In this document: positions 22,170 through 59,200 of the stretch, one piece after another | Numbering within the stretch: the stretch's first letter is position 1 | Layout: each line of letters starts with the position of its first letter | Assembly: GCA_024516035.1 (NCBI GenBank) | Contig: CM044961.1 | Location: 7,354,428-7,418,427, forward strand | Direction of reading: 5' to 3' | From: Bactericera cockerelli | Taxonomy: Eukaryota; Arthropoda; Insecta; Hemiptera; Triozidae | DNA: 64,000 nt | Notes under the pieces: generated by a model | The model's input: only the letters and a program-made list of their open reading frames with translations | Told to the model about the DNA's origin: nothing | The model's database searches: none | Made by a program: the position numbers and the translations under genes

Positions 22170-22436
22170 CTAAGAAGGCTAGAATAATCATTTCTGTATT
22201 TTTCTTTCAGGCATTAACCCTAGAATGACCATCTCTATATTTTTCCTTCCGTAATTAACCCTATAATAAGCATCTCTATATTTCTCTTTCAAGAATCAAC
22301 CCTAGAATGACCACATCTATATTTTTTTTCTCAGTAATTAACTCTAGAATGACCACCTCTATATATTTCTTCCAGGAATTAACCCTGCAATGACCACCTT
22401 TATAATTTCCTTTCAGGAATTAACCCTAGAATGAGC
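22170..22436 (+). repeat. 41-bp tandem array over the FAR exon 1 acceptor and start codon
   Basis: Six or seven copies of a unit made of a pyrimidine tract, CAG, GAATTAACCCTAGA, ATG and about 15 more bases. Acceptor-like AGs fall at 22210, 22293, 22334, 22375 and 22416; the copy at 22251 has lost its AG. The last copy is the one joined to the open reading frame. Most upstream copies keep an ATG followed by ACCACCTCTATAT. Confidence 0.85.
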
Positions 22437-22652
22437 GCCTCTATATCCGCCATGGAGCATTTTAGGAGCCTAGATGAGTTCTACGACGGCGCAGAGATCT
22501 TGCTGACGGGAGGTACAGGATTCATGGGAAAAATTCTCATTGAGAAGCTACTGCGCAGCTTTCCGCGCATTAAGAACATCTATATGCTTGTCAGAGAAAA
22601 AAAAGGACAGAGTGCGTCGCAGCGGATCGATAAGATGTTCGAAACTTCAGTG
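22431..22652 (+). CDS. FAR coding exon 1
   Basis: Encodes residues 1-74 with the NADPH-binding motif TGGTGFMG. It ends in phase 0 at the donor GTGAGT, just before a T-rich run. The acceptor AG is at 22415-22416, leaving a 14-nt untranslated leader in this exon; upstream noncoding exons are not identified. Confidence 0.9.
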
Positions 22653-25600
22653 GTGAGTTTTTTTTACGTTTTTTTTTTTTTTTTTTTTTGTTTCATGGGT
22701 GCATGGTAAGACCATGGGGGGTGTCCACAGGAAACTCACAAACCTGCTACCCACATTAACCTTACCGAGCCTGGGTTGGGCCGGACTGCCAGCATCACAA
22801 AGTCTTCACCTCGCTGGACGTTACTTAATTTCGGTGATCCTACTGGTGCATTCATCGCGCCATCGACGCTGGCTTTACATCTCTTTGGCAGCCATTCTAG
22901 ACGGTTTTGTTTTAAATTAAATTTGCTGGATAACTTAAATATTTAGGGCGGAATTAATGTACGTTTTTGTAATACCTTTATGTAACTAAGTCTAAGATTT
23001 CACGTAGTGTCATAGATGGGGAAAACTAATGCTAGGTCATTACTTGAGATCTCGATTTTGTCTATAGATTTCAGTTTTGTTTAAATCTTACGAAACTTAA
23101 TTCACAATACCAAATGAGTCTCGCCCAATTTTTCAAGTCGTTGGTGCCCAATTTTCTTTTTGATTTACCTACAGTTCTCACTTATCTTGACTTAAGATTA
23201 TGTCATGACTAGAGATTTATTTATTTTTTATTTATAAACAATTGGACCAAGCTTTATTTACATTTTTTTTTATATACAATGAACATAATAACATGGTGAA
23301 ATAAATATAAACAAAGCCTGATCAAGGGTGGTGATAATGCCTTCGGCATTCTCTTCCACACCACCCTTGATTACAGGAAACAAAAACAGTTGGAAAAATA
23401 CATAAAAAAATATTTACAATATTAAAATATATAAACAATTAAAATTTGGGGGAAAAAAGGGAAGGGGGGGGGGGCGGAATTAGCAACTTATAATAATAAT
23501 AATAAAAAAGAGATCTCGATTTTGTTTATTGATTTCACCTGTGTCTAAATTTTAGGAAACTATTCACAATAAAAAATGAATCTCACCCATTTTTCAAGTT
23601 GTTGGTGCTCACTAATCTTCAAAATTATCCAAATAAAACAATTCGTTTGGTTGATATAAGAGTATGTCGATTGTTTTTTCCTATTATTACCTCCCATCTT
23701 CTCATTCTAACCTCCTCAGATATTCGAGAAGCTACAAGAGGAGATTCCCCACTTCAAGCTCAAAATCAAAGTCCTCAACGGTCAGCTGGAGGCTCCTCAT
23801 CTAGGCTTGAGGTCAGAAGACCGGAAGCTCCTCATGTCCAAGGTCAACATCGTTTTCCACGTTGCTGCCACCTTGCGGTTTGATGAGGAACTAAAGACTG
23901 CCATCTCAACGAACATTGGCTGCACGCAGAAGATGCTGGAGCTGGCGAAAAAGTGTCCGAATTTGAGGGTGAGGCGACCACGTAGGGTTAATTTTAAAAC
24001 GGCGCGATAAATTGAGCATGAGAGACTGCGTGGGGTTAAAATTCCATAACAAATTATAATTACCTAATTTATACTATCGGCTAAAATTAGAGAAAGTTCT
24101 ACTCGGTATACGAACAATCTCATATTACTTTTCTCTGGAAGGTTCTATACCTCAAAAAAAGGTAAAAAAATTATATCTGCATAATTTTTTATATGGGCAT
24201 GACAAAAAACCAAAATAAAGGATTTACAAATCTAAATGCCAACAAACCCCGGAAGTAATGTCACACTCTAGGGGTGAATTATACATATGTATAATAGGAT
24301 TAAGGGCGGAATTAATAGACGTTTTTGTAATACCTCTGTGGCGTTAAGTCACGGATTGCGTAGGATAGGGAAAATCGACGCTCAGCAATGACTTGTGATT
24401 TATAATTTGTCTATTAATTACGCCCTAAATTTAAGATAAGCCAGACTCTCCCTCAAGTTGGTCCACCATAGGTAGTAAAAAATGCTTTCAGCATTAACCT
24501 CGCCTGGTGTTTACCTTCCTCTAAAGCAGCGGTCGGCAACCTTTTGAACTACGCGGACCCCTAGCATATCTCAATTTTTTTAAAGGGACCCCCACATTAC
24601 AAAAGGGGGGGGGGGGGGGTATGAAAGAAAAGTAGTTAGGGGGAAGTGGGGTACCTCGGACTATTTATGATTCGAGTTCATGAGCTATTTTTATTATTCT
24701 TTTTTTAAATCCTGAAATGGCTTCGCGGACCCCCAATTTAGCTCTCGCGGACCCCCGGGGGTCCGCGGACCCCAGGTTACCGACCGCTGCTCTAAAGAGT
24801 AATATTATACAAAGAGCGCTGTGATTGGTTGAAACTTCGCTTTGAGAGGTTCTGGCTGATCTTGAATCTAATCCTATTTTATAAAGCACCGACCCCAGTA
24901 GCTTGATCGAAAAGCAGCAGACTTGTAATCAGGAGGTCGGTGGTTCAAGTCGCGTTTTCATCGTAATTTTAGTAAAGCTAGTTTGAGTAGTTATATCTCG
25001 AAAGTGATTAACACAAATATGATAACTATTTTATAAAGCGGCCCATCCATCCCTTCTTCCTCAGATGTTCACCTACGTGTCGACAGCCTTCTCCAACGCC
25101 TACCTGAAAGACATAGAAGAAATCATTTATAAGCCGCGTACACACTATTCAGAACTGCTGAAGATCTCCCAGTTGGATCTAGAGAATCCTAAGTATCAGC
25201 AAAGTCGCAAGAGGTAAGTATTCTTTTTCGGAGAGGAGGTAAATTTTATGTAAATGCGGAGGAGATAATTATACGTCTTGGGCTTACTCATTAATAGTCC
25301 TAATCGGGCAGTATAAATAAGGCGATATATTATTATTTTTTCTATTATTAATAGAGTAGCTGCTGTTTCATGGCTACAAATTAACCCATTGCCTACCAAG
25401 CCATTTTTATGAAACTTGCCCTGGGGACCAAGGGTATTTTCCTCAAAATCACCTGTCTAGCATATGTGCAACACGCGGTCCCCCAGACAAAAAACCCATA
25501 TTTCCTTGTCACTAGGGAACGTGTATAGCATATGTGCTAGACAAATTGTCTTGCATATATGCTATACATGGTGCCCAAGAAGGTTCAAACGTGTCTAGCA

Positions 25601-28600
25601 TATATGCAACCCCGGATCCCCAGGCAATACCAGTGTCTTGCAAATGTGCTACCCATGGTAGGCAATGGGTTAAAAAGAGCTGTGAAACACTCATCTTTTC
25701 AAAAGAATAATAAGTACTGTATCTCTCGATGTTTATTTTTCAGACTTGCTGAGGAAAACGTGAACACGTACACCTTGACCAAAGCCGCCGCAGAACAGCT
25801 GCTACGAGAGGAGGCTCAATACTTCCCCGTCTGTATTTTCCGTCCAAGTATAGGTGAGCACAGGGACTAGAAGGGGTTTGTTAAATATAGCTCTGTTTTT
25901 ATGAACGCCTCGAAATGTTGTAGATATGCAATGTGCAACAAACCAATATTTTATTTTTCTTCTTTAAATGTACCTATATAATTTCTTTTTTCTTTCTTTT
26001 CGTCTACTAATTTATAGAATAATAACTGCCTTCTTTTTTTTCTCTCTTCTATTTTTTTTTATCAAGGGTGGTCCGGAGAAGAATGCCGCTGGCATTAGCA
26101 ACACCCTCGATCAAATTTTGTTTCTATAATTGTAAATATTCCTTGTATGTATATAATCTTACTGTAAATAAAACTTGATCGAATTGGTGTAGTAATAATA
26201 AATAAAGCAATGCTCAATACTTTTCCGTTTGTATTTTCCGTCCCAGTTGAAAGAGGATTAAATTTAAGATAAGCCAGACATGCCCTCAAGTCGTAGTTTT
26301 AACCAATCACCGAGTTGAGGAACAGTCTGGTTTACCTTAACTTTAATCCTATTTCATAATTTGGTCCCAAAAGAGTTTTGGTAAATCTAGCTGTTTCTAT
26401 GAACGCCTTGAAATGTTTCAGATATGTAATGTGCAATAAAGACGCATGCTCAATACTTCTCCTTTAGTAGATTATAGGAGGGGAACAATGGTTTGCTATA
26501 CCAAAAACCCTTTTTTATGAGTGGCTCGTAACATTATAGATTTGATAAGCTCAAGAGTTCAATACTTACCCTAGTGTAAGCCGGGGACTACTATATTTAT
26601 TTTGTATTAAGATCACCTTTTTATAGACGCCTTTGAATATGTAGATATGCGATGTGCAATAAATTAACAAGACCTTTAAGCATGATGAGATTCCTTATTA
26701 CTTTACCTTTTCCTTCCACATCATTCTATTTTGAACCTCCTGTGTGTGTGTGTGTGTTTTTTTTTTTTTTTTCTTAATTAATTTTTTAATTAATAAATTT
26801 TTATTAATTAATATTAATTATTATAATTCCCTTTCGTTCCCAGTGGTATCCACCTGGAAGGACCCTATCCCTGGCTGGATAGACAACCTGTACGGGCCCA
26901 CCGGTATATTAATTATTATAATTCCCTTTCGTTCCCAGTGGTGTCCACCTGGAAGGACCCCATCCCTGGCTGGATAGACAACCTGTACGGGCCCACCCCC
27001 ACCGGTATATTAATTATTATAATTCCCTTTCGTTCCCAGTGGTTTCCACCTGGAAGGACCCCATCCCTGGCTGGATAGACAACCTGTACGGGCCCACCGC
27101 TATATTAATTATTATAATTCCCTTTCGTTCCCAGTGGTATCCACCTGGAAGGACCCTATCCCTGGCTGGATAGACAACCTGTACGGGCCCACCGGTATAT
27201 TAATTATTATAATTCCCTTTCGTTCCCAGTGGTGTCCACCTGGAAGGACCCTATCCCTGGCTGGATAGACAACCTGTACGGGCCCACCGGTATATTAATT
27301 ATTATAATTCCCTTTCGTTCCCAGTGGTGTCCACCTGGAAGGACCCCATCCCTGGCTGGATAGACAACCTGTACGGACCCACCGGTATAGTGACGGGCGC
27401 ACAGGCCGGTGTCGTGAGGAGCATTCTGGCGGACCCCCAGGTGAAAGCAGACATGGTGCCGGTGGATTACGCCACCAATGCGCTTATCTGTGCACCGTGG
27501 AACGGCTTGCAACAGTGAGTAGCCTCATCATAGGGTGGCATCATCGTGAACGATGGTAGCCAGACAGTGAAGGAATGACTCAGCACCTCTACCACTGTCT
27601 ATACAAGGAGGCTAATAATTGACAAGGGCCCCCAGAACCAAGTCAATGCTGGTCTACTCCCTGTCTATAGTCCCCCCAGCCAGACTAAGTAGCCTAGTGG
27701 AACTTTTTTTTTTCAGATGATTTTTTTTCTTCAAAATTTCAAAGTAACTCACAATTTTTTTAAGCACCCTGCAACAGTGAGTAATGCGAATATCCTTGTA
27801 AGACCTTTTTTTCAGATCAATTTTTTTTCTTCAATTTTTCAAATTAACACATATATTTTTTAAATGCCCTGCAACAGTGAGTAATGTGAGTATCCTTGTA
27901 TGACATTTTTTTTATCAATTTTTTTTTTCAATTTTTCAAAGTAACACATAGATTTTTTATTGAAAAATACAAAGTATATAATAATTATTTCATAAATTAA
28001 AAAAATACAGAAGAATCACAATCACAATTGATGATCAAAAGCTAACCTCTTAGGACCGAATTATGAAACAAAAATAGATTAAGAGGACACTATCACTTAA
28101 CTCAGGCTACAGTGCGCTGTGATTGGTTTTCGTGAATTCCCGCTAGAGCTTAATTTCCACTTAGATTAATCGAATCCTGTTTCATAATTCGGCCCTTAAC
28201 CCTAAACATTGGCATCCTCGGTCTCAATACAGCTACTACCTAACCATAGATTGTACTTATTACATATTACTTCCGATAAATTTCTAATTTTAGAAATCGG
28301 AAGTAATGTGTTTGTTTTTGTAAAAAAACAAACAAACCAACTTCGGTTTTTTTTATTATTTTTTCAGATTCCAACACGATAATTCCTCGTTACCGATCTA
28401 CAACTATGTGAGCTCCAAAGATAACCCAATCACGTGGCAAGAATTCACCAAAAAAAGCTTCGATATTGGAATTGGCTTTCCTGCCTCTCAGGTAGGAACA
28501 AGTTAGAACTTACAAATAAATACAGGTTCATAAGTTTAAACTTATATGTGATGTTGTTGTTGTAACCAGAATTGATCAACTATAATGTTGTTGTTGTTGT

Positions 28601-31588
28601 TGTTGTTGTAGCCAGCTTGGCTACAGCTGGAGGGGTGAGTGATGGTCTCCAGCTAACTATATTTCAAATTTTAATAGGAATACATGTTCCCGTCAATTCT
28701 TGTAAAAAAAAAAAAACGTATTTACCCCCAAAACCAATTCATTGATATTGTTTCTCTCTCAGGCTCTCTGGACGTATATGATCTATGTCACCAAAAACAA
28801 AACGCTCCACTACCTACAAACATTAGTTCTGCACTATCTCTTCGGCTACATCTTCGATCTCATTGCCATGTGCAGCGGAAACAAGTTCAGGTAAATATTT
28901 GTAAATTTATGTAATCATATTTCTAAATTTAAAGTAAGCCAAAAAAAACGAACATGAAATTTCTCTGAAGTAAAAAAATGATCACCCAGACACATTAGGC
29001 AGGCAACATTGAAATTGAAAGTTTCCTGAATTTTTAAATACGTAAATATAAGATATATTTTTACCATTATCAATTTGAAGTGCATAATTAAACACACTAC
29101 ACAATTACACAACACTGGACATGGAACAGAGCCCTCAACACTGGTTCTGGGCGTCCAAAGGGTTCAATACCCGTATCAATCCTTCCACCACCATGATATT
29201 ACACATGCATGGACACGGAAAATAAAGTAAGTATAGAAAAACAAACAACCGAGTAGCCAGCGTCGATCGCGCATTGAATACATCGGTTCTCGTAGGATCA
29301 CTGAAGTTAAGCAAAGTCCAGTGAGGTGAAGACTTCGTGATGCTGGAATTCCGGCCCAAACCAGGCTGGGTGAGTTTAATGTAGGTAGCAGGTTTGTAGA
29401 TAGCAGGGATCGTGTATAGCATAATATATGTGCTAGACAAATTGTCTTGCATATATGGTATACATGGTACCCAAGAAGGTTCAAACGTGTCTAGCATATA
29501 TGCAACCCTGGTACCCCAGGTAATAACAGTGTCTTGCATGGTAGGCAATGGGTTAAAGATGGTTTTCCTTCTCAGATTGATTCCGATCTACCGAAAAATG
29601 GACAAGGTGGTGTCCGCTCTGGAGCCGTTCAGCACACGAGAGTGGAACTTCGACAACCGCCACGTGCGCGCCATGTGGGCGGGGCTTAGTCCGGCCGAGC
29701 GCATGCGCTTTCCATTCAACATCGAGAGTCTGGACTGGGACGACTATCTGGACAAATATGTGAAGGGCTGTCTGGTGCACCACATGAAGGACAAGATGGA
29801 CGCCGCCACCAGACAGAAAGCGATGAGGCGGTACAAGAGGTGAGATAATAATAATAACGGAAGAATTGAATTGAATTGAATTGAAAATGTGGCAAATTTA
29901 TTTACATCAAGATAATATACATATTAGATCACCTCCTAAGCTAAACTTAACTTTTTGGGAAGAGAATGCCCTTGGCATTAGAGACAGAAAGCGATGAGGA
30001 GGTATAAGAGGTGAGATAATAATAATAACGGAAGAATTGAATTGAATTGAATTGAAAATGTGGCAAATTTATTTACATCAAGATAATATTATACATATTA
30101 GATCACCTCCTAAGCTAAACTTAACTTTTTGGGAAGAGAATGCCCTTGGCATTAGAGACAGAAAGCGATGAGGCGGTATAAGAGGTGAGATAATAATAAT
30201 AACGGAAGAGAATGCCCTTGGCATTAGAGACAGAAAGCGATGAGGAGGTACAAGAGGTGAGATAATAATAACGGAAGAGAATGCCGTTGGCAATAGAGAC
30301 AGAAAGCGATGAGGAGGTATAAGAGGTGAGATAATAATAATAATAATAATAACGGAAGAGAATGCCCTTGGCATTAGAGACAGAAAGCGATGAGGAGGTA
30401 CAAGAGGTGAGACTGCGAATTTTGAGCTTCTTTAATTTTGACCTTCTTTACGTCTGTCGGTCTGTTAAAAATATTCCTTGTAACGCGCAAATCTCGGAAA
30501 CTACTCGACGGATTTTGATAAAATTTTGCACACTTATAGGAGACGTTCTGTAGATAGTCCCATTTGTAATTAATCAAATTCGTACTAGCGGTTCTGGGTG
30601 AAAGAGTCCATGCGTCTGACCACTAACTTTTTACTTAAACGCTTATATCTCGTGAACGGTACACCCGATTTTTGATGAAATTTTGTATGTATATGCACAT
30701 CATTGTTTTACATAGGCTATTTATATTTATTTTTTAATTAATTATAATTTAACTCTGATATTTAGGAAAATCCGAAATTTTTGAAAAAAAGTCAAAAAAT
30801 AAGGTTCACCACTTGCCGATACAGAATTTTTTGTAGAATCTAGAATGTAGGAAAAATAATATACTACCATATAAAATAAATTTGAAGAAAATCGGTTCAG
30901 CGGTTTTGGAGATACAAGTGATTTAGTATAAAATCTCAAAATTGGCACGTGTACTTGTATACTATGTGAAACAATCACGAGGAAATTTTGTGTCCATAAT
31001 TGGCAGTGTTTTTTTAGATACCACCAAATACATACATAATTAAATAATTATGTCCTCATATATTTGAGAATTTGACCACTAAAAATTGCATCAAACCAAC
31101 TATAACATTTTTCTTACTTTTTTTCTAACTTAGACGTCTGTCCCGGTAGCTCAGTGGTAAAGGCGGCACTCTCTGAATTAATTGATTCCAGAGGTCGCGG
31201 GTTCGAAACCCATCCGGGACATGACAAGTTATCCTCTCATTTGGGATTTTTACCACATAATGATACGTCTTGGGCTTACAGCTGGAAAGATGTAACTTAA
31301 TAGTCCTAATCGGGCAGTATTCTTTTTCATTTTTATCGTATATATTGTTTCCAATTTTTTCATTGTTAAAATAATTATTTGTATTGTACAATCTGTACAT
31401 ATGTCCATTTATATCTAATAAATTGTGGAATAATAATAATAAAAAGGCGATATTATCATATTATATTATTATTTATGATTTTTCTTTGTTTCAGGCTCAC
31501 CATCGCCCATCAGTGTGTGAAAGGTCTCCTGTGTGTTGTCCTGGCTCTCTTCCTGTGGACTCTGATGAAATATCATACAGGATGTTGA
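22431..31588 (+). CDS. Fatty acyl-CoA reductase, nine coding exons, 509 aa
   Basis: Reduces fatty acyl-CoA to fatty alcohol with NADPH, for wax, hydrocarbon or pheromone precursors; FARs are usually ER or peroxisome membrane enzymes. Coding exons: 22431-22652, 23720-23968, 25065-25213, 25744-25853, 27325-27514, 28368-28491, 28763-28890, 29576-29839, 31495-31588. All junctions are GT-AG, phases agree, and the sum is 1530 nt. Seen in the product: Rossmann motif TGGTGFMG at 26-33, VNIVFHVAATLRFDE at 116-130, VSTAFSN at 162-168, the YxxxK active-site signature YTLTK at 216-220, PGWIDNLYGPTG in exon 5, PIYNYVSS in exon 6, the C-terminal FAR domain over exons 7-9, and a final hydrophobic stretch (GLLCVVLALFLWTL). 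About 510 residues is normal for insect FARs. The start is the first ATG after the exon 1 acceptor; a second in-frame ATG is codon 8. Four of its exon edges carry tandem arrays. Which FAR paralogue this is cannot be told here. Confidence 0.93.
22725..22872 (-). mobile_element. SINE F in FAR intron 1
   Basis: GCCAGCGTCGATGGCGCGAT on -, GGATCACCGAAATTAAGTAA (5S-like), CCCAACCCAGGCTCGGTAAG; truncated at the tail. Confidence 0.82.
22945..23080. mobile_element. MITE H, diverged copy in FAR intron 1
   Basis: AGGGCGGAATTAATGTACGT and TTTTTGTAATACC match the copy at 24302; the right end is decayed. Confidence 0.55.
23216..23385 (-). mobile_element. Retroposon tail L in FAR intron 1
   Basis: On -: ATCAAGGGTGGTG, TGGAAGAG, AATGCCGAAGGCATT, CACCACCCTTGAT, then a T-rich tail with AATAAAGC. 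The two nested stems are perfect in this copy. Confidence 0.8.
23720..23968 (+). CDS. FAR coding exon 2
   Basis: Begins after CCTCCTCAG and ends before GTGAGG, phase 0 to 0, 83 codons. It carries VNIVFHVAATLRFDE, a strongly conserved FAR segment of the Rossmann domain. Confidence 0.92.
24302..24428. mobile_element. MITE H, best copy, in FAR intron 2
   Basis: TAAGGGCGGAATTAATAGAC and GTCTATTAATTACGCCCTAA are near-perfect 20-bp inverted ends around about 88 bases. No ORF. Confidence 0.82.
24464..24815 (+). mobile_element. SINE C tail split by a hAT MITE
   Basis: AAAAAATGCTTTCAGCATTA and CCTCGCCTGGTGTTTACC lead to TTCCTCTAAAG; after the MITE, CTCTAAAGAGTAATATTA completes the SINE tail. Confidence 0.85.
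24527..24789. mobile_element. 263-bp hAT-type MITE with 8-bp target duplication
   Basis: Ends CAGCGGTCGGCAACCTTTTG and CCAGGTTACCGACCGCTG are inverted. CTCTAAAG lies on both sides (24519-24526, 24790-24797). An 8-bp duplication and CAGCGG ends fit hAT. A second copy is at 50433. Confidence 0.92.
24892..25032 (+). mobile_element. SINE P in FAR intron 2
   Basis: CAGTAGCTTGATCGAAAAGC, GGTGGTTCAAGTCGCG, body ending GATTAACACAAATATGATAA; reverse of the other copies. Confidence 0.75.
25065..25213 (+). CDS. FAR coding exon 3
   Basis: Begins after CTTCCTCAG and ends before GTAAGT, phase 0 to 2. It encodes FTYVSTAFSNAYLKDIEE, the FAR strand that carries the conserved serine-threonine segment of the extended SDR active site. 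Confidence 0.92.
25256..25700 (+). mobile_element. SINE A tail, then SINE E end split by a piggyBac-like MITE
   Basis: 25256-25345 is a SINE A tail (GGGCAGTATAAATAAGGCG). 25350-25384 (GCTGTTTCATGGCTACAAAT) and 25670-25700 (AGAGCTGTGAAACACTCATC) are the two halves of a SINE E end. Confidence 0.78.
25385..25669. mobile_element. 285-bp piggyBac-like MITE with TTAA flanks
   Basis: TTAA at 25381-25384 and 25670-25673; ends CCCATTGCCTACC and GGTAGGCAATGGG are perfect inverted repeats. Inside, AGCATATGTGC and GCATATATGC words recur. It lies in FAR intron 3. Confidence 0.9.
25744..25853 (+). CDS. FAR coding exon 4 (active-site YxxxK)
   Basis: Begins after ATTTTTCAG and ends before GTGAGC, phase 2 to 1. 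It carries NTYTLTKAAAEQLL with the catalytic Tyr216 and Lys220, then VCIFRPSI. A TTAA-flanked MITE ends about 70 bases upstream of the acceptor. Confidence 0.92.
26061..26205 (+). mobile_element. Retroposon tail L in FAR intron 4
   Basis: ATCAAGGGTGGT, AATGCCGCTGGCATT, AACACCCTCGAT, then TGTAAATAAAACTTGATCG and a TAA tail. Confidence 0.8.
26743..26770. repeat. (TG)n then poly-T before the exon 5 acceptor array
   Basis: About eight TG units followed by 15 T; simple-sequence DNA next to the 95-bp array. Confidence 0.9.
26814..27388 (+). repeat. 95-bp tandem array over the FAR exon 5 acceptor
   Basis: Six copies, each with about 30 bases of intron end (TTCCCTTTCGTTCCCAG) plus 65 bases of exon. 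Exon starts are at 26844, 26939, 27040, 27135, 27230 and 27325; one unit is 101 bp through an extra CCCACC. Differences between copies in the exon part are few and almost all at third codon positions. Confidence 0.92.
27325..27514 (+). CDS. FAR coding exon 5 (sixth copy of a repeated acceptor)
   Basis: Only the last of six near-identical copies of this exon's 5' part continues into the rest of the exon and its donor (GTGAGT). It encodes VSTWKDPIPGWIDNLYGPTG, then VTGAQAGVVRSILADP and MVPVDYATNALI, phase 1 to 2. Splicing to any of the first five copies would read into the 30-nt intron piece and frameshift, because each copy shifts the frame by two. Confidence 0.9.
28266..28306. repeat. Short palindromic motif G in FAR intron 5
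   Basis: ACTTCCGATAAATTTCT and AGAAATCGGAAGT around TAATTT; the cleanest copy of this motif. Confidence 0.75.
28368..28491 (+). CDS. FAR coding exon 6
   Basis: Begins after TTTTTTCAG and ends before GTAGGA, phase 2 to 0. It encodes LPIYNYVSSKDNPITWQEF, a typical conserved FAR block just before the C-terminal domain. Confidence 0.92.
28553..28660 (-). mobile_element. LINE 3' end with TTG microsatellite
   Basis: (GTT)n followed by GTAGCCAGCTTGGCTACAGC. On - this is a 3' terminus ending in (CAA)n. Similar ends at 36060, 42365 (reverse) and 60232. Confidence 0.6.
28763..28890 (+). CDS. FAR coding exon 7
   Basis: Begins after TTTCTCTCTCAG and ends before GTAAAT, phase 0 to 2. It encodes the hydrophobic HYLQTLVLHYLFGYIFDLIA segment that opens the C-terminal FAR domain. 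Confidence 0.9.
29258..29400 (+). mobile_element. SINE F in FAR intron 7
   Basis: GCCAGCGTCGATCGCGCATT, GGATCACTGAAGTTAAGCAA (5S-like), CCCAAACCAGGCTGGGTGAG; 3' part replaced by the TTAA MITE fragment. Confidence 0.85.
29403..29552. mobile_element. piggyBac-like MITE, left-truncated
   Basis: Matches the right part of the element at 25385 (TGTGCTAGACAAATTGTCTT, GGTAGGCAATGGG, then TTAA). It ends about 20 bases before the exon 8 acceptor, so its right flank has become part of the splice-site context. Confidence 0.85.
29576..29839 (+). CDS. FAR coding exon 8
   Basis: Begins after TTTCCTTCTCAG and ends before GTGAGA, phase 2 to 2. It encodes the C-terminal FAR domain (REWNFDNRHVRAMW, FNIESLDWDDYLDKYVKG). 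Its last 24 or so bases and the donor are repeated five more times downstream. The acceptor lies about 20 bases after the right end of a TTAA-type MITE fragment. Confidence 0.92.
29815..30412 (+). repeat. Tandem copies of the FAR exon 8 donor
   Basis: The segment AGACAGAAAGCGATGAGG...AAGAG plus GTGAGATAAT recurs with donors after 29839, 30010, 30184, 30256, 30325 and 30406. The spacings (171, 174, 72, 69, 81) are all multiples of three. Units also contain a retroposon hairpin piece (AATGCCCTTGGCATT) joined to exon sequence at the shared bases AGACAG. Confidence 0.9.
30413..31010. other. Dispersed noncoding repeat in FAR intron 8
   Basis: Phrases such as ACGTCTGTCGGTCTG, GATTTTGATAAAATTTTGCA and ATATCTCGTGAACGG are of the type found in noncoding parts of invertebrate mobile elements; no frame is open for long. 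Confidence 0.45.
31139..31470 (+). mobile_element. SINE A split by a retroposon tail
   Basis: SINE A head TGTCCCGGTAGCTCAGTGGT to CGGGCAGTAT at 31320, then an L-type tail (TTTTTCATTTTTATCGTATA to CTAATAAATTGTGGAATAA), then the SINE A end AAAGGCGATATTATCATATT. Ends 25 bases before the FAR exon 9 acceptor. Confidence 0.82.
31495..31588 (+). CDS. FAR terminal coding exon 9
   Basis: Begins after TTTGTTTCAG. It encodes a hydrophobic C-terminal helix (GLLCVVLALFLWTLMKYHTG) and stops at TGA 31586-31588. The last 31 coding bases, including the stop, are the first unit of a 42-bp satellite, so the 3' UTR is satellite DNA. Confidence 0.85.
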
Positions 31589-33023
31589 AGTATTTTTTAT
31601 ACTCTGATGAAATATCATACAGGGTGTTGAAGTATTTTTTATACTCTGATGAAATATCATACAGGATGTTGAAGTATTTTTTATACTCTGATGAAATATC
31701 ATACAGGGTGTTGAAGTATTTTTTATACTCTGATGAAATATCATACAGGATGTTGAAGTATTTTTTATACTCTGATGAAATATCATACAGGGTGTTGAAG
31801 TATTTTTTATACTCTGATGAAATATCATACAGGGTGTTGAAGTATTTTTTATACTCTGATCAAATATCATACAGGGTGTTGAAGTATTTTTTATACTCTG
31901 ATGAAATATCATACAGGGTGTTGAAGTATTTTTTATACTCTGATGAAATATCATACAGGGTGTTGAAGTATTTTTTATACTCTGATGAAATATCATACAG
32001 GGTGTTGAAGTATTTTTTATACTCTGATGAAATATCATACAGGGTGTTGAAGTATTTTTTATACTCTGATGAAATATCATACAGGGTGTTGAAGTATTTT
32101 TTATACTCTGATGAAATATCATACAGGGTGTTGAAGTATTTTTTATACTCTGATCAAATATCATACAGGGTGTTGAAGTATTTTTTATACTCTGATGAAA
32201 TATCATACAGGGTGTTGAAGTATTTTTTTATACTCTGATGAAATATCATACAGGGTGTTGAAGTATTTTTTATACTCTGATGAAATATCATACAGGGTGT
32301 TGAAGTATTTTTTATACTCTGATCAAATATCATACAGGGTGTTGAAGTATCTTTTATACTCTGATGAAATATCATACAGGGTGTTGAAGTATCTTTTATA
32401 CTCTGATCAAATATCATACAGGGTGTTGAAGTATCTTTTATACTCTGATCAAATATCATACAGGGTGTTGAAGTATCTTTTATACTCTGATCGAATATCA
32501 TACAGAGTGTTGAAGTATCTTTTATACTCTGATCGAATATCATACAGGGTGTTGAAGTATCTTTTATACTCTGATCAAATATCATACAGGGTGTTGAAGT
32601 ATCTTTTATACTCTGATCGAATATCATACAGGGTGTTGAAGTATCTTTTATACTCTGATCAAATATCATACAGGGTGTTGAAGTATCTTTTATACTCTGA
32701 TCAAATATCATACAGGGTGTTGAAGTATCTTTTATACTCTGATCGAATATCATACAGGGTGTTGAAGTATCTTTTATACTCTGATCGAATATCATACAGG
32801 GTGTTGAAGTATCTTTTATACTCTGATCAAATATCATACAGGGTGTTGAAGTATCTTTTATACTCTGATCGAATATCATACAGGGTGTTGAAGTATCTTT
32901 TATACTCTGATCAAATATCATACAGGGTGTTGAAGTATCTTTTATACTCTGATCAAATATCATACAGGGTGTTGAAGTATCTTTTATACTCTGATCAAAT
33001 ATCATACAGGGTGTTGAAGTTTT
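31557..33023 (+). repeat. 42-bp satellite, about 35 units, arising in the FAR stop-codon exon
   Basis: The unit is ACTCTGATGAAATATCATAC followed by AGGGTGTTGAAGTATTTTTTAT. The first unit is the coding end of FAR. Units before about 32340 have TATTTTTTAT; later ones have TATCTTTTAT and GATCAAAT or GATCGAAT, so there are at least two blocks. One 43-bp unit near 32221 shifts the frame. Because 42 is a multiple of three with no stops in some frames, long ORFs appear on both strands; they are by-products. Confidence 0.95.
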
Positions 33024-33057
33024 TTTTTATACAGAAAAATCCAGAATCTTTTCTTTT

Positions 33058-33170
33058 GCCAGCCTCCGTGGCGTGACGGTTGAGACTACTGCCCGTAGTT
33101 CAGAGATCCCGAGTTCGATGCCTGCTCGGCTTGATGATCTTGCTCCAGGATGCGGCCCCCCCCAGACATT
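33058..33170 (+). mobile_element. tRNA-like SINE K fragment
   Basis: GCCAGCCTCCGTGGCGTGAC, ACTACTGCCCGTAGTTCAGA, CCGAGTTCGATGCCTGCTCG. The same head occurs at 51660, where it is split by a SINE B. Confidence 0.7.
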
Positions 33171-33219
33171 ACCCATCACATCAGTCGTGCCTACGCAGGC
33201 GCTGTAAAACCCTCACCTT

Positions 33220-33480
33220 TAACACGTTGGACGCCGCGTGACCCAAATAAGGGTCACAGTGCCTTGAAGTCTGGTACCATGTGACCCCTATAAGGATCAC
33301 AGGAGTATGTTGTAATTCTGTTCATGTGACCCCTATTGAATTGGTATAAGGAGTTTTTGACGTGCTACGATTGTACAGAGAATTACATAGGGAACTTTTG
33401 ACGTGCTACGATTGTACAGAGAATTACATAGGGAACTTTTGACGTGCTACGATTGTACAGAGAATTACATAGGGAACGAC
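33220..33480. repeat. Short tandem repeats next to a GTGACC-rich segment
   Basis: Three copies of a 41-bp unit (TTTTGACGTGCTACGATTGT, ACAGAGAATTACATAGGGAA) lie at about 33354-33476. Before them, GTGACCC and GGGTCAC words alternate as imperfect palindromes. Confidence 0.85.
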
Positions 33481-33584
33481 TGCCATGCCATCACTCGTCT
33501 CACAACCCGAACATCATCGCATGGTAAACATTGTGGTTAAGTTCAAACCTTACACTCTGCCGGGCTGTCTCTTTCTTTGTATAG

Positions 33585-33722
33585 GCGTTCTTTACACCTC
33601 GGCCGAGGTGTTTGATCTGTTCTGCTTATACTACACCATACCCGTGTCCCCCACGGAAGTAAACCGCATTCTCATGAGTCCGTGTTGGGGATATTCTATT
33701 TTTTATAATGAAGAGCATTATT
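33585..33722 (+). other. Open stretch of unknown nature
   Basis: After TTTCTTTGTATAG a frame reads GVLYTSAEVFDLFCLYYTIP then VSPTEVNRILMSPCWGYSIF to a stop. I do not recognise a family. It includes the 18-bp perfect palindrome ACACCTCGGCCGAGGTGT at 33595. Confidence 0.3.
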
Positions 33723-39391: not shown

Positions 39392-39555
39392 TCACACTCG
39401 ATTCTTATCCTCTTCACTACTCTCGGACACCAAAGGCAGCTGCATGATCCAGAACACGTCTCCCTCTTTCATCCTCACACTCACAGCCTCCACACTCTCA
39501 CTCTCATAGGTGTTGGAGCTGCTCACGAGACCTCCGAACGACAGGGTTGCATTGT
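39392..39555 (-). CDS. Thiamin pyrophosphokinase terminal coding exon
   Basis: Encodes LSFGGLVSSSNTYESESV, the conserved thiamin-site S-T/S-S-N-T-Y block, then MKEGDVFWIMQLPL and an acidic tail before the stop at 39392-39394. Acceptor TTTCTTCCAG. The 2.7-kb intron before it is full of SINEs. Confidence 0.9.
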
Positions 39556-42500: not shown

Positions 42501-44501
42501 GGTGTTTTTATTTCGTAGCCATGAAATAGGAGCTACTGTAGACGCTTGTGGTTTGTGTTGTAGCCTGCCCATCCCGTAGTATGCCTCCCCTCTGATGGGC
42601 GAGAAGCCGAGAAGTGACACAATACTTCCCGATTAGGTGCTGGGTCAACACAAGCGCACCGAAAGGTATCCCTTACAAGCAATTGTAACCAAATTAAGAA
42701 TACAAATTTTTGTCGGTACGGGGGATCGAACCCGGGACCTTCCGCATGGCAAGCGAGTGCTTAACCACTAAGCTAATCGCGCGCTCGTTATGATAGAATA
42801 ACACAAATAAACCACACATGTAAATACATTGCATACATAAATATTAAATAGAAATGTATATCTTACTCTTGGCTCAGGTGAATAGTGTGTAAACCTCCGG
42901 ATGCTCTCAAAATCCAGCTCACATATTTTTCACTCAGCAGATAGATAGTCAGTGGAGACTTATACAGCGTGTTAATGTTGGACATTAGATGATCCAGTCT
43001 ACCATTTGATTCCACCACAGAAACAATGTGATCAACCTGTGGGTAGTTAAATAGATGCTGAGGTGATAGTGAAAAAAAAAACTTTTAAATGAACTAAAAA
43101 AGAACCATTAGGAATTGTACAGTATAAAGAGAATTAATATTATTGATAATTGAATGGAATATTTTTATTTATTAGTAGGTACAAGAAAATATTACCTACA
43201 ATATGTAAAAATCGGTTCTGGGACTTTTCGTTCACTCTGTCTGTATATCAGGGCGGTAATCCAGTGGTTGTGGGACGAATTTCAGCCAGAAGAGACAAGT
43301 TATCCTCCCATTTGATATTTTTACCACATAATAATAAGTCTTGGACTCATGCTGGAATAATGTTAGTAATCAGTTCTGATTGGACAGTATAAATTTAATA
43401 CTGTGATATTATTATTAAAATATTTTGACTTGGGCAGTAGGTACACAAGAACGAAGATCTTTATTTGTTTTAATATTTTATTTTTTATTTTACCTTCATA
43501 CGACTTATAATATTCTTCACAGCCTTCTGGAAATCAGTGGCGGATTGATCGGGAGTGGGTAGAATCTCCACTCCCATCTCCTGAAACTTCCTGATACCTT
43601 CAGAACTGGCAGAGTCAAAGTCTCCTGTGATGAGGTCTGGTTTGTAGTGGGCGGGGTCTAGCTTATTCTTGCTCAGGAATGATAACCAACGGTCTGAGCC
43701 TTTGTCAACCAAAACACGGATTTCGGCTGAAAACACAAGTGTTTTTTTTAAATTAAAGAATCTTTGGTGGCTTTTTAATTGTTGTTACAAATAATACAAA
43801 CTAAAGTCAGTAAAGTAGAATCTGGGCCAACTCTGCTTTTTTTCTCTGTTGAGTATATATCCAGCATACCAAGCACCTAAATGGGAAGTAGTGTGTCACT
43901 TTTTGCCGATCAGGGGGGAGACATACTACGGGGTGGTCAAGCTACAACACAGACCCCATGTGTCTTCAGTAGCTGCTGCTTAATGGCTACAAAATGAAAA
44001 GGCTGTGAAAAACTCATCTTAAAATTATCATTTTTTTAATCAAATGTTTCTCGTTTATTTTATACTATTTATTTGATTCACAGTGTTCTTAAACCCCACT
44101 TGAACTAAGTTAACAATATTTTGTTTCAGCATTTGCAAAATTGCTTTTACTTTTTACGTAAAAGATAGATATTTCACTTGAGAAAATAAGTAAACAGTAA
44201 TCAAAAAAATAAAATCTTACTAACCATTTTTCCACAGATTTGTGATTATATTTGGAGCCACTTCTATGGGTCGATTCAGAATGAGCATTCCATATGACAA
44301 TTCTTCATTAGGAGAGATTACCACATGTTCTGGAAACCAGTGAGTTTCACCGTTTTGATTTGTGTGTGTTGTAGAATTTGAACTACCCATCCGGTAACCA
44401 TTTGAGTAATTGTTGATTGAAAGCACTGACTGAGCATAACTGGACAGTAGGAGAAGACTGTAGAAGTTAGGCTTAAAATTGTGCAGACTTTGACGCAACA
44501 T
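39392..44501 (-). CDS. Thiamin pyrophosphokinase, five coding exons, 310 aa
   Basis: Transfers pyrophosphate from ATP to thiamin to make thiamin diphosphate in the cytosol. Exons in coding order: 44225-44501, 43494-43726, 42867-43036, 42215-42303, 39392-39555; total 933 nt, phases agree, GT-AG throughout. Seen: MLILNRPIE at 72-80, GDFDS at 127-131, TPDQSATDF at 150-158, GRLDH at 182-186, GLIPVG at 236-241, TGLKWNL at 250-256, SSSNTY at 268-273, all in family order. The family's usual ADGGxNR block reads VDKGSDRW here, keeping the Asp but losing one Gly. The N-terminus is about 45 residues longer than in typical animal enzymes; Met38 is an alternative start. The frame is open upstream of Met1 to the acceptor, so an extra 5' coding exon is possible. 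It lies on the opposite strand to FAR and TMEM94. Confidence 0.92.
39605..39960. mobile_element. SINE P/A-like and SINE F remnants
   Basis: 39605-39780 has GTGTTAATCACCTTCGTGAT and a reversed tRNA-like CCGACAGGATTTCGAATCCG. 39785-39955 is SINE F on - with a long 5S-like stretch (GTCACCCATCCAAGTCCTA reads as the family head). Confidence 0.65.
39967..40145 (+). mobile_element. Chimeric SINE: family C head joined to family A tail
   Basis: Head GTTGGTCGAGTGGTTAAAGC and GGTTCGAATCCCACCCGT (family C), then AGTCCTAATCGAGCAGTATA (family A end) in place of the C tail. Confidence 0.6.
40161..40985. repeat. 420-bp tandem duplication of a SINE D plus SINE A composite
   Basis: Two copies starting at 40161 and 40581. 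Each holds SINE D on - (GCCCCGGAACCGCTTTC, TGAGCCATGGAGGTCGGC), a unique linker, and a SINE A tail on - (ATATCGCCTTAATTCTACTG). The second runs on into the SINE A head at about 41020. Confidence 0.93.
41595..42040 (+). mobile_element. Two SINE A copies in tandem; the second carries a small insertion
   Basis: 41595-41790 is a full copy; 41791-42040 is a second, without its first 10 bases. The second is split at 41930-41995 by a 70-base AT-rich insert flanked by AATGGGACTT on both sides. Confidence 0.85.
42048..42188 (+). mobile_element. Retroposon tail L
   Basis: GGGGTTCGGTGGAAGAG, AAAGCCACAGGCTTT, AATGTATCATGTAGTTGACC, AATAAAGTGTTAAAT and (TAA)n. It ends close to the kinase exon 4 donor. Confidence 0.85.
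42215..42303 (-). CDS. Thiamin pyrophosphokinase coding exon 4
   Basis: Encodes GLIPVGHPVHGVYSTGLKWNL, the thiamin-binding beta domain signature. Acceptor TCACCAG, donor GTGAGT, phase 2 to 1. Confidence 0.93.
42485..42792 (-). mobile_element. SINE E, full length
   Basis: Head on - AGCGCGCGATTAGCTTAGTG and CCGGGTTCGATCCCC, then CGGTGCGCTTGTGTTGACC and the family end. Confidence 0.85.
42867..43036 (-). CDS. Thiamin pyrophosphokinase coding exon 3
   Basis: Encodes SVVESNGRLDHLMSNINTLY, matching the family's G-R-x-D-H/Q block, then a beta-rich stretch. Donor GTAAGA, phase 0 to 2. Confidence 0.92.
43250..43400 (+). mobile_element. SINE A, 5'-truncated, in kinase intron 2
   Basis: TTATCCTCCCATTTGATATT, CACATAATAATAAGTCTTGG and a GGACAGTATAAATTTAATAC end. 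Confidence 0.78.
43494..43726 (-). CDS. Thiamin pyrophosphokinase coding exon 2 (catalytic Asp motifs)
   Basis: Carries VDKGSDRWL, LITGDFDSAS and TPDQSATDF, the acidic motifs that bind metal and pyrophosphate in this family. Acceptor GTTTTCAG, donor GTAAAA, phase 1 to 0. Confidence 0.93.
43862..44020 (+). mobile_element. SINE E, 5'-truncated, in kinase intron 1
   Basis: AGCACCTAAATGGGAAGTAG, GACATACTACGGGGTGGTCA, AAACTCATCTT. Confidence 0.8.
44225..44501 (-). CDS. Thiamin pyrophosphokinase coding exon 1
   Basis: Residues 1-92, with a hydrophobic N-terminal patch (YSLLLLSSYA) and the first family block GMLILNRPIE. The exon itself begins at 44535 after TTTTTCAG. A stretch at 45700-45745 (-) ending in a good donor, GAG before GTAAAG, may be a noncoding first exon. 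Confidence 0.85.
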
Positions 44502-44959
44502 AGCAAGGTCACTTCTCAATAATTTTTGAACACACCTGAAAAAGGTATAGGAATAGAAAAATTATTCCAGTTGTTGTAGTATTATTAGCATAATTTGACT
44601 TGGGTTTCAAGTCAGAAGGTATGTTGTGATTTCATATGATCAAATAGGATCATTTTATGGGCTTAACAAATTTACTTTTAATGTTTCTTATGACCTCAAA
44701 AATAGAGTTAAAATCAAAGTTAACCTTGATATGACTTTGTATGAGCCAACTGGCAAATTTCAAAAGGTCACTAATAAGTATTCACTAGTAAAAAGGTCAC
44801 TAAAATCATAAGTATCCCCAAATGTTAGGAAAACCACCATAAACATAAACTTTCCATCTTTATTGGTTTTCAAGTAATTTGAATGTAATATGACACCCTT
44901 CAAGAAATCCTACTCATTCCTAACAAACAATATCATTGATTGTTAGGAAATAATAAATA

Positions 44960-47097: not shown

Positions 47098-47132
47098 AAT
47101 GTAAGATCTTACTGGAGGAGTAACCAATAACA

Positions 47133-53200: not shown

Positions 53201-56200
53201 GAAATTGTAAATAAAGCTTGATCCAATTGTTTAAATAAAAAAAATACAATTTTTTGTCGGAATGGTGGATCGAACCCGGGACCTTGCGCATAGTAAGCAA
53301 TAATAATAATATCGCCTTATTTATACTGCCCGATTAAGACTATTAAAGTCCCATTATTCCAGCAGTAAGCCCAAGACATATTATTATGTGGTAAAAATCC
53401 CAAATGGTAGGATAACTTGTCATGTCCCGGATGGGTTTCGAACTCACGACCTCTGGAAACTCTGGATTCACAGAGTGCCGCCTTTACCACTGAGCTACCG
53501 GGACAGACTGCTTAACCTTAACACAGAGCAACTGCTTAACCACTGAGCCAATCGGGCGCTCAGTGTACGAGAATACAGGAAAATGTACTTGAAAATGAAA
53601 CGTTTGTCTCTCTCGCTCAAAAAGCAAGTAATATGAAGGCACCTGTGACGGACGGTTTTGTGGAAGAGATAAGGGTTGGGTGGAAGAGATTGCCATAGGC
53701 AATATCCCCGCCCTTTAGTTAGAACATATGTATATATTTTTTTTCTTGTTTATTTTATCATTATTATCAATTTTTATATTTAATGTTTACCATTATTTGT
53801 CTGTATATATGTTCTACTAATAAAGAGTTTCTAAATAAATAAATATTTTTTTTTTTTTTTTTTTAATTTTCCATTTATTTATTACAATTATAATATGTTA
53901 CAGATTTTATAATGATTTAATGGTATCCTTTCTCAAATTTAAAAAAAAACTGTGTTGAGAAAGGGGAGTTCAGAATTTAAATCGTGGATATATGAAGAAT
54001 AGGAAAAAATAAATAAATAAATAGAAATTATCAAGTTCCAATTTTTTTTTTTTTAAAGTTCATTCTAAACATTCTAAACATTTGTATAAGTAAATATTTT
54101 TGTAAGAAGATGAGCCGACAGAAATAAAAATAAACATAAAAATTGCATCTCATTATATAAATTTAATTTAAAACATTTTTAATGTAACTATATATGTTGG
54201 ATTCTGAAAGTTTTGTAAATAGAATTGTATGTTGTTTCCAGTTCGCCACCAGCAACACCTGTCTGGACATGAAGCAGCTTCTGCACGAGAGACACATTCT
54301 CCCCCTGGGCTCCTGGAGTGTCCTCAGAGACAACGTTCTGTCCTGTGTGAAGGGAGACGGACGCTTTGTCACCCGGACTGCTAACTTGCTGCATGTTCTG
54401 GGAAGTGTTTCGGTGAGTATTGGGTTGGGTGGAAGTGTTTCGGTGAGTTTATTTATTTATTAAATATTTTATTGTACATAAATATTCATGTTTGAATGTA
54501 TACAACGTCATTTTCTTACAAGCTATTGTAAATACCACAAACTATAATTTAATTCATAGAGTATACAATACCCAGACAGCACGGCAGGTGACTTCCAGTC
54601 TGGATTTAAGGTGGAAATATCCAGGTGTATAAAGTCAACTGGACCTCCAGCTGTCCCGACAGCTGGATTTTTCCATTATGGATTAAATCAGTTGACCAGC
54701 CACCTGGATATTTCCAACAAAAATCCATCTAGACTCAGTCACCTGGGCAGTCAGCTGGAAGTATAACGAATCTCTCCAGCTAGGACATAAATAGAATTTA
54801 GTCAGTTGACCAGTCAGCTGGAGATGCTCCACATTTCTCCAGTTCAGTTAAAACGCGCTCTCGGATAGATTCGGGTTTCACACGAACTTTACCGAGAGTG
54901 TTCTTGTTGCATTCGCCATCTTTAATCTTTGAATAATTTTTTAGAGAAATTCCGTTTTTGTGATTCTCGATTATTGTGAGTTGTTTTAATTCTTTTTATA
55001 ATTGGTACCTATTTCAATTAGTTTTTGAACATTTTTATAACTACTGCAAGTGTTAATTCTAACTGAACTTCAAATTTGATTTCGAGAAAGTGTTAATTCT
55101 TACTGAACTCCATATTTGATTTTGAGATGTCACAGAAGGAGTTCTTTGGTTTGTCTAAAATTCTAAATCGTGAATCGTGACAGAAGAAAAGGAAAGGACA
55201 ACAAAAAGTTAAAAATGGATAACATTCTTCATTGGACAATACTCCATGCACTTGGACAATAATGAACTTTCTGCACTCTACTGTTCCTGGACACTGGACA
55301 GTCAAACTAGCACAGGGGTTCAACACCATCAATTCACTTGGAATTGTACCTTAAAAAAGGTCCTGGGTCAAGCAAGGAAACAGCTGAATTATCTGATGTA
55401 TGGTGCTAGATAATGAAAATTTTCATTCTGTGGATTTTATTTAGATATGCAATACATAATATTTTATTATAAAATGAATTTTTCACTCGTACGTGCTTCT
55501 GCCACACTAACAAAACGTTAACGTGACAAACGTGACAACAAAAAGTTAAAAATGGATAACATTCTTCATTGGACAATACTCCATGCACTTGGACAATAAT
55601 GAACTTTCTGCACTCTACTGTTCCTGGACACTGGACAGTCAAACTAGCACAGGGGTTCAACACCATCAATTCACTTGGAATTGTACCTTAAAAAAGGTCC
55701 TGGGTCAAGCAAGGAAACAGCTGAATTATCTGATGTATGGTGCTAGATAATGAAAATTTTCATTCTGTGGATTTTATTTAGATATGCAATACATAATATT
55801 TTATTATAAAATGAATTTTTCACTCGTACGTGCTTCTGCCACACTAAAAAGATGATGTAGTGTATACTTTTTTACATGCTTCCTGATTATTTGACTCAAA
55901 ATTAATTAGCCAATCTTCTGTGCACTGTCTCTAATAATAATATTAACTATTCAGCTTTCTAAACCACCTTATTACTATGAAGCCCCTCAAATTTTGTGTT
56001 CATTTTATATCTATTAAAAAAAAGTGTTCCACACTATTGTGTTTTATAATTTCACTAGTCTTAACAATTAAGTCAATTTTGTTTTAATTTAAGTATAACA
56101 ATGCTTTTTTGGTAATAATTCTCAAAGCAAACAACCCAGCAATTCTAATTAGCCACAGAAGTATGTAAATTGTCATGAAGGATTACAAATACATAATAAC

Positions 56201-59200
56201 ATTCACTAATCCATGTTCCACCACGTTAGACATTGCTTAACTTTGGCTATTTCATAAAAACTGGTGTATTCAATGCCTCATCATCATTTTCTGCTGGCTA
56301 TTAGTTTATTTCTTTGTTATTTTTGGTTTCACTGAAGAAATATATTTTCATTTACATAGTATTTATTATTTTATTGTGATTATGTACATGGTATGAGCAT
56401 ATTTTATAATTGGATATCATTATTTTATTTCTATACTAGCTAAAACCTGGCATTTTGTCACCATTAAGGTTTTTTCTCATGGCCGGTGTCCTAATGAAAA
56501 TAATAATAACATTTTTAATTGGAAGGTAACCACCAGGTCAGGTTATGCTCAAAGCATTTTCTACCACCTAACCCTCAGAGTCTTATTATTATGTGGTCAC
56601 AACCATAATGAGGAAAAATTTGAAACAACGGAACCCTACGCTAAGTGGATTATCTGACTAGCACGTTAACCACTTGATTACCAGTGCACTTGAAAATTGT
56701 ATTACATATTTTTATTTTGATAATTTTCTAGTATGTTGAAGGTGGCTTAGGGGGGGTGAACTCTCAGTGAAAGTACCATTTCGTATTGTAACCCCAAGAG
56801 GACATAGTCAGCCAGACATGCACAACTTTGAGTATTATATATAGTATTATTATACCTACTTAGGAAGTACTTGTGATACATTGGTACAAGGTCTTGTGAC
56901 ATGGTGGAAATTTAATAGTGCATTTTACACTTTTGTGACAATTTTTTTATTAATAATAAACACTCTTATTGTAAAATATAATCATGTTAAAGAGTCTTAT
57001 TTGAATTGTGTTGTTTAAAACAGATTAGTTATTTTCTTTTTCTTTCCAAATTTCTATAAAAAAAAAAAAAAATTATACCCAAATTTGTGTGTGTGTATGT
57101 GTTAAAAAACCTATTTAAAATTTATTACTTTATTTTTATACAAAAAAAATATTCTTCATGAGATTTGAATGTATGGCCTCTAAATTAAATAACTGAAATT
57201 GAATTTATGCCTAATATACATTTGTTTCTAGATTTTTATTACTATTATTATTATTATTATTTGCAAAAAAAATGCATATAATGGGATTCGAACCCACGAC
57301 CTCAAAACCAAGAGCGTAGCATTTGATTATTATGTAGTATAATGTACAGTATAGGTAAATAGGTATGTCAACATTGTGGTAGTGAGTTACTACCCATCCA
57401 CTAGAGAGCGCTATAAGTAGCTGGAAATAAGTGGAACAAATCCAGTTGACTTTGGGCAACTGACTTCCAGTTAAAAGTTGGGTTACTTTCCAGTTCATTT
57501 CCAGTTGATTTCCAGGTGGAGGTCAGGTGGAAGGTGGAAATCTCCAGCTGATTTCCAGGTGGGCAAGTAGACTTTTTCCACCTAACAGTATGGTATACAT
57601 CCAGTTGACTGTGCTGTCTGGGTAGAAAGGGCCTAGACCTGTGAAACATATTAAAGATTTATTTTTAAGGAAAAGTATTGAGTATTCCTGTGCATGTTCT
57701 AGGAAGTGTTTCGGTGAGTATTCCTGTGCATGTTCTGGGAAGTGTTTCGGTGAGTAGTCACTGTGCCATGTTCTAGGAAGTGTTTCGGTGAGTATTCCTG
57801 CAAGGGAAGACAGGAAAATGTACTTGAAAATGAAACTCCTGGAGTGTTCTCAGAGACAACGTCCTGGCCTGTGTGAAGGGGGACGGGCGCCTTGTCACCC
57901 GGACTGCTAACTTGCTGCATGTTCTGGGAAGTGTTTCGGTGAGTATTCCTGTGCATGTTCTGGGAAGTGTTTCGGTGAGTATTCCTGTGCATGTTCTGGG
58001 AAGTGTTTCGGTGAGTATTCCTGTGCATGTTCTGGGAAGTGTTTCGGTGAGTATTCCTGTGCATGTTCTGGGAAGTGTTTCGGTGAGTATTCCTGTGCAT
58101 GTTCTGGGAAGTGTTTCGGTGAGTATTCCTGTGCATGTTCTGGGAAGTGTTTCGGTGAGTATTCCTGCTGCATGTTCTAGGAAGTGTTTCGGTGAGTATT
58201 CCTGTCCATGTTCTGGGAAGTGTTTCGGTGAGTATTCCTGTGACTGCTAACATGCTGCATGTTCTGGAAAGTGTTTCGGTGAGTATTCCTGTGACTGCTA
58301 ACTTGCTGCATGTTCTGGGAAGTGTTTCGGTGAGTATTCCTGTGACTGCTAACTTGCTGCATGTTCTGGGAAGTGTTTCGGTGAGTATTCCTGTGCATGT
58401 TCTAGGAAGTGTTTCGGTGAGCTGTGCATGTCCTGGGAAGTGTTTCGGTGAGTAGTCCTGTGCATGTTCTGGGAAGTGTTTCGGTGAGTAGTCCTGTGCA
58501 TGTTCTGGGAAGTGTTTCGGTGAGTATTGGGTTGGGTGGAAGAGATTGCCACAGGCAATAACCCCGCCCTTTAGTTAGGACATCGGTTTGTCACCCGGAC
58601 TGCTAACTTGCTGCATGTTCTGTGAAGTTTTTGGTGAGTATTCCTGTGCATGTCCTAGGAAGTGTTTCGGTGAGTATTCCTGTGCATGTTCTAGGAAGTG
58701 TTTCGGTGAGTATTCCTGTGCATGTTCTAGGAAGTGTTTCGGTGAGTATTCCTGTACATGTTCTAGGAAGTGTTTCGGTGAGTATTCCTGTGCATGTTCT
58801 AGGAAGTGTTTCGGTGTATTCCTGTGCATGTTCTGGGAAGTGTTTCGGTGAGTCTGCCTGTGCATGTTCTGGGAAGTGTTTCGGTGAGTATTCCTGTGCA
58901 TGTTCTAGGAAGTGTTTCGGTGAGTATTCCTGTGCATGTTCTAGGAAGTGTTTCGGTGTATTCCTGTGCATGTTCTGGGAAGTGTTTCGGTGAGTATTCC
59001 TGTGCATGTTCTGGGAAGTGTTTCGGTGAGTATTCCTGTGCATGTTCTGGGAAGTGTTTCGGGGAGTATTGGGTTGGGTGGAAGAGATTGCCACAGGCAA
59101 TAACCCCGTCCTTTAATTAGGACATATGTTTTTATATATTTTCATTTCTTTTTCATTTTTATTGTATACAGTGTTTCTATTTTTTTCATTGTTAAAATAA

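Follow-up and report, generated by a model that had tools for sequence, protein, structure and literature searches.

A 64,000-nucleotide stretch of the Bactericera cockerelli genome (contig CM044961.1; hereafter the window) contains tandem arrays that lie at or near exon edges of two neighbouring genes, FAR and TMEM94. The first-pass annotation had described five such arrays, each straddling a real exon boundary, and had regarded their placement as apparently non-random. This arrangement raises the question of whether the arrays are indeed associated with exon edges and, if so, how they arose and why they are tolerated.

Genes and tandem arrays

Gene models were built here for FAR (nine exons), TPK1 (five exons) and the first seven exons of TMEM94, and are supported by comparison with relatives. 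The first two are:

22431..31588, plus strand: FAR gene, nine coding exons, 509 amino acids in one open frame
39392..44535, minus strand: TPK1, five coding exons found, gene start unplaced, no copies of its exon edges

The FAR product contains the Pfam domains NAD_binding_4 (1.3e-76) and Sterile (9.6e-27), and its closest relatives are psyllid proteins, namely those of Diaphorina citri (70% identity, the nearest named) and Cyamophila willieti (69%), the genus Cyamophila being classified under Psylloidea. The best match of TPK1 shows 66% identity, followed by Diaphorina citri with 61%. Solved chains of TPK1 are matched by the minus-strand model, and solved chains of TMEM94 by exons 1-7, including the stretch across the exon 6/7 junction. 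The coding exons found account for 6.0% of the window, in agreement with the earlier estimate of less than 10%. The sole run of N in the window (4003-4102) is distant from the arrays. The window additionally contains an inverted repeat (60772-61917 / 62853-64000) with arms of about 1.15 kb and 99% complementarity that reaches the window end, and two tRNA-like stretches (6482-6566 and 53422-53505), one of them with an odd anticodon, which are perhaps SINE heads.

All five arrays were detected by TRF with the unit sizes originally given (41, 95, 69-174, 42 and 36 bp), and four of them cover an edge of a coding exon. Two of them, both in FAR, are located on the acceptor side of an exon:

22179..22446, plus strand: FAR exon 1 array, 41 bp x 6.5 (TRF), 78% matches
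26811..27389, plus strand: FAR exon 5 array, 95 bp x 6.0 (TRF), 95% matches, one unit of 101 bp

The unit of the exon 1 array (~41 bp) combines a likely acceptor with the 5' part of exon 1, including the start codon. In the gene model, the authentic copy is the last unit, with AG at 22415-22416 and ATG at 22431; the acceptor is likely to lie between 22416 and 22417, 14 bases 5' of the start codon. The AG at or beside this junction is kept in five of the six phased units and lost in one. The exon 5 unit consists of the 3' end of intron 4 with the acceptor and the first ~62-65 bp of exon 5, so that acceptor copies are found at 26844, 26939, 27040, 27135, 27230 and 27325 (six copies for 6.0 TRF units). 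Here too the gene model places the authentic copy last (acceptor between 27324 and 27325, exon start at 27325), and the computed frame reaches an early stop codon from each of the five upstream acceptors, if used. The trinucleotide ATA, common to exon and intron at the unit junction, may be a trace of the kind that microhomology repair would leave. An array in FAR intron 5 (27707..27959, plus strand, 100 bp x 2.6) was considered as a sixth case and not counted: each unit shares a stretch of 14 bases with the exon 5 donor, exact at 27770 and 27870, but of 4969 control positions with a four-letter core, 54 have a match of this kind on the same strand, within 1 kb and outside arrays, which is not significant over 42 edges.

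The other two FAR arrays extend downstream from an exon:

29811..30412, plus strand: FAR exon 8 array, units of 69/81/174 bp (TRF)
31559..33032, plus strand: FAR exon 9 array, 42 bp x 35 (TRF), 98% matches

The exon 8 unit comprises the last 29 bp of the exon, the donor and a repeat-derived piece of intron. The site AGAG/GTGAGA is present six times in this array (29840, 30011, 30185, 30257, 30326 and 30407). According to the gene model the authentic copy is the first, with the donor between 29839 and 29840, and use of any of the five downstream donors would lead to an early stop codon in the computed frame. Given that the copies of the exon 5 and exon 8 splice sites were located by motifs containing the site, the count of retained sites in these two arrays is partly circular. 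Two of the exon 8 units carry the same insert of 93-96 bases, flanked by GGAAGA on both sides. These two units are equal at 112 of 112 aligned bases with one 3-base gap, and this identity suggests that the insertion came before the duplication of the unit. A hairpin-like piece, GGAAGAGAWTGCC..GGCAWT, recurs at 23357 (minus strand), 53682, 58538 and 59080 and inside the exon 8 array; it has been incorporated in two exon-edge arrays and is perhaps a retroelement tail. The exon 9 array begins in the final nine codons of FAR, spans the stop codon (ending at 31588) and continues downstream, with the first unit as the authentic copy in the gene model and a gradient of variants along the 42-bp units. 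It was thus correctly placed at the stop codon in the first pass, but here the coding sequence ends, with no splice edge, and the array unit does not span an intron-exon boundary.

The fifth array had been assigned to the donor of TMEM94 exon 6. It was misplaced, lying inside intron 6, although its units do carry the exon end and the donor:

54242..54412, plus strand: TMEM94 exon 6, likely source of the 36-bp unit
54413..54455, plus strand: TMEM94 exon 6 donor and a second copy at 54443, 30 nt on, with an 18-base exact match
54569..57624, no strand assigned: putative TIR element, with 14-bp perfect inverted ends, or TA plus 12 bp
57679..59070, plus strand: TMEM94 intron 6 array, 36 bp (TRF), x 3.3 at 57679-57800 and x 31.9 at 57916-59070

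The open frame of exon 6 joins exon 7, and the residues flanking the junction align with the solved chain 9ywq. The array unit (~36 bp) corresponds to the last ~23 bp of exon 6 plus the donor (best match 30/30 bases), with 28 exact TTTCGGTGAG among 31 GTGTTTCGG, and the first unit is reached 3.27 kb past the exon 6 end. None of 7994 scored candidate proteins resembled the translated array at E <= 0.001. The intervening segment 54569..57624 may be a single element of 3.06 kb that has come to lie between exon 6 and its array; this reading is based on one 14-base inverted pair among the 26 inverted pairs found. Without the element, the array would start about 210 bases past the donor. The segment also holds a 337-base sequence repeated 1.9 times in tandem with 100% identity. 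A 103-base copy of exon 6 that lacks the acceptor is present at 57836-57938; four of its six differences from the exon are synonymous as judged by eye, above the neutral expectation, in a sample of small numbers.

The second exon 6 donor is by itself a weak case, with matches of at least 16 at 122 of 8000 control positions. Its frame is open and its use would add VSIGLGGSVS in frame, such that the two donors 30 nt apart could possibly give rise to an alternative splice form. The frame test covered these two donors only. An in-frame TAA follows the second donor and, on direct reading, the donors of the array would therefore lie beyond a stop.

Origin of the arrays

We consider it likely that these arrays are mirage-type minisatellites, produced by local tandem duplication and tolerated since only the copy joined to the exon is coding. 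A named class thus exists where the first-pass annotation knew of none: according to two papers, the term 'mirages' comes from work on the Adh gene of amphioxus (PMC3087553, PMC3902484).

Under the mirage explanation, each array would have started as a short tandem duplication with one breakpoint in an exon and the other in the adjoining intron, generated via microhomology repair or replication slippage, and the unit would then have multiplied via unequal exchange or slippage. The exon-joined copy, that is, the last one for an acceptor and the first one for a donor, would maintain the reading frame, and the remaining copies would become intron. Because only the exon-joined copy stays linked to the exon, duplications at an edge would be tolerated like intronic ones, and those lying wholly within exons would mostly be removed. 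The FAR exon 9 array would have resulted from a duplication of the same type, at a stop codon instead of a splice site. The outermost copy of an array is probably still functional and the other copies harmless debris; we infer the duplication mechanism, the actual splicing and the neutrality of the copies from the sequence.

The structure of the arrays is largely in line with this scheme. The unit spans the intron-exon boundary in the arrays at FAR exons 5 and 8, and at exon 1 if the acceptor is real; the TMEM94 array belongs here by origin only. In the gene models of FAR exons 1, 5 and 8, the authentic copy is at the exon-joined end and the others are in the intron, and in each of the four FAR arrays the exon-joined copy occupies the expected end. 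The early stop codons that would follow from use of the other exon 5 and exon 8 sites agree with this scheme as well. AG or GT is still present in many copies of the arrays of exons 1, 5 and 8 and of TMEM94. Turnover of the arrays appears to be dynamic, as suggested by the insert shared by two exon 8 units and the variant gradient in the 42-bp array. Counting against the mirage reading are the position of the exon 9 array at a stop codon and that of the TMEM94 array away from its exon.

Association with exon edges and alternative explanations

Tolerance alone predicts no excess of arrays at exon edges, and therefore an excess, if real, needs an additional cause. Five of the 42 coding-exon edges, with FAR exon 1 taken at the start codon, have a second copy in the window at 24 or more of 30 bases, and these are the five array edges. 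In TPK1, none of the 10 edges has a copy in the window at this threshold, as the first reading of the kinase gene had indicated.

For statistical comparison, 44 TRF rows were merged by hand into 31 loci with a period of at least 10, of which 13 score at least 100. Under the founder null, a single founder unit was placed at random; under the footprint null, the whole array was shuffled. We judged the founder null apt, given that a real edge exists only once and that array growth came later. The exon 8 unit was set at 174 in these tests, which raises its chance of edge overlap.

Four of the 13 higher-scoring loci are on an edge, compared with 0.95 expected under the founder null in the whole window (P 0.009) and 1.57 in the 22-61 kb region (P 0.05); for the 10 of these loci that are in gene spans, the expectation is 1.43 (P 0.03). 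With the nine loci of at least 2.5 copies, the four on an edge compare with 0.37-0.38 expected in the window (P 0.0002-0.0003) and 0.61 in the 22-61 kb region (P 0.0014-0.0017), and with the seven such loci in gene spans 0.65 is expected (P 0.0013). All 31 loci give P 0.02-0.07, and arrays of 30-200 bp P 0.0003-0.002. When only splice edges are considered, three loci are on an edge in both sets. For the 13 loci this gives P 0.05 in the window and 0.17 in the 22-61 kb region, and for the nine P 0.003 and 0.014, respectively. When whole footprints are shuffled the excess disappears, with P 0.08-0.70 across all edges and 0.25-0.87 across splice edges. These comparisons are post hoc, the hypothesis having come from the same data, one window with few arrays. 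The non-random placement suggested at the outset is supported by the founder nulls, but not by the footprint shuffles, and is at best borderline in the splice-edge test on 13 loci. Within the window, an association of arrays with exon edges is supported, but the excess is modest and varies with the choice of arrays and edges.

A cause that could account for such an excess is that exon edges are hot spots for tandem duplication, owing to splicing-linked R-loops, to pausing at polypyrimidine tracts or to a composition step at the exon edge. This possibility, which we regard as tentative, is compatible with the mirage explanation, and both can hold. It draws on the four of nine multi-copy arrays found on an edge against 0.37-0.61 expected, on the two genes affected here, on the differing apparent ages of the arrays (78% to 98% matches), which suggest recurrence, and on the same pattern in several amphioxus genes. 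Against it, the evidence is post hoc and comes from one window with small numbers, and P values are 0.009-0.05 with 13 arrays and 0.05-0.17 for splice edges only, with no excess by footprint shuffling. TPK1 has no copies at any of 10 edges, and one of the four edge arrays surrounds a stop codon rather than a site of splicing.

Somewhat less probable still is that duplications occur everywhere and that those bearing exon sequence caught the eye. Nine of the 13 arrays scoring at least 100 overlap no edge, one of the five arrays originally noted was misplaced, and neither the footprint nulls nor the splice-edge test on 13 arrays goes beyond borderline significance, all of which would fit chance. 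The founder nulls for the nine multi-copy arrays (P 0.0002-0.002) and for arrays of 30-200 bp (P 0.0003-0.002) argue otherwise, and so does the displaced TMEM94 array, which is also built from an exon edge.

It had also been suggested that selection keeps the duplicated splice sites, which might then act as decoys or spares that tune splicing. We find this improbable: AG or GT is indeed retained in most copies and the second TMEM94 exon 6 donor is in frame, but the other exon 5 and exon 8 sites lead to early stops, AG has been lost in one of six exon 1 units, and the copies are young or homogenised, so that the retained dinucleotides carry little information. An assembly artefact is the least credible alternative and very unlikely, given that the arrays, although known from one haplotype in a single assembly, show structured differences among copies (78% to 98% matches) and private inserts within units, and that the only N run is far away.

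Relation to known boundary repeats

If the mirage explanation is correct, the kind of array is known, and what looks new is the insect lineage and the number of arrays in neighbouring genes. The two papers on mirages that we found concern amphioxus (PMC3087553, PMC3902484), and we found no insect mirage in the titles and abstract openings of the open-licence papers retrieved. The presence of several arrays in two adjacent insect genes suggests a wider mirage process, which may favour exon edges. It would be a considerable step further, and one that we consider doubtful, to propose that tandem arrays have been recurrently seeded on exon edges throughout the genomes of psyllid-like insects, independently of amphioxus. 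Should this be true, exon-edge seeding would be a living record of edge duplication in which intron growth and origin could be tested. A genome rich in boundary duplications could be used to test whether these feed intron growth or gain, as proposed for the amphioxus globins (PMC3087553).

The closest known system is that of amphioxus. Mirages are reported there in the globin genes BflGb6 and BflGb9 and had previously been identified in Adh3. Their units measure 10-160 bp and affect 5' as well as 3' boundaries, AG or GT persists in many of the copies, array length is unstable, RT-PCR showed regular splicing, and they have been proposed as a source of new introns (PMC3087553); further mirage genes include troponin C and PGBD5 (PMC3902484). 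The arrays described here resemble those in being minisatellite-like tandem duplications across an intron-exon boundary, at donors or acceptors, with units of tens to ~160 bp, AG or GT often kept and the authentic section joined to the exon. They differ in that they come from an insect, several are found in one gene, one is displaced and one is at a stop codon, and in that splicing is predicted from gene models rather than established by RT-PCR. At the protein level, to which the comparison was confined, the exons on either side of the arrays form a single open frame alignable with psyllid FARs.

Two other systems are more distant. Intron gain by tandem duplication (the Rogers model), which has produced novel intron positions in Drosophila cases (PMC2891723), likewise involves copying of splice signals within genes but starts at proto-splice sites inside exons and makes new introns, whereas in the present arrays existing introns seem to have grown longer and a newly made intron is not apparent. 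In human segmental duplications, internal tandem repeats located at exon-intron boundaries (PMC2812944) are also minisatellites that alter gene structure; these may give rise to novel introns, in many cases alongside an alternative transcript in which the repeat stays exonic, whereas the inner copies of the arrays in the psyllid genes appear to be plain intron.
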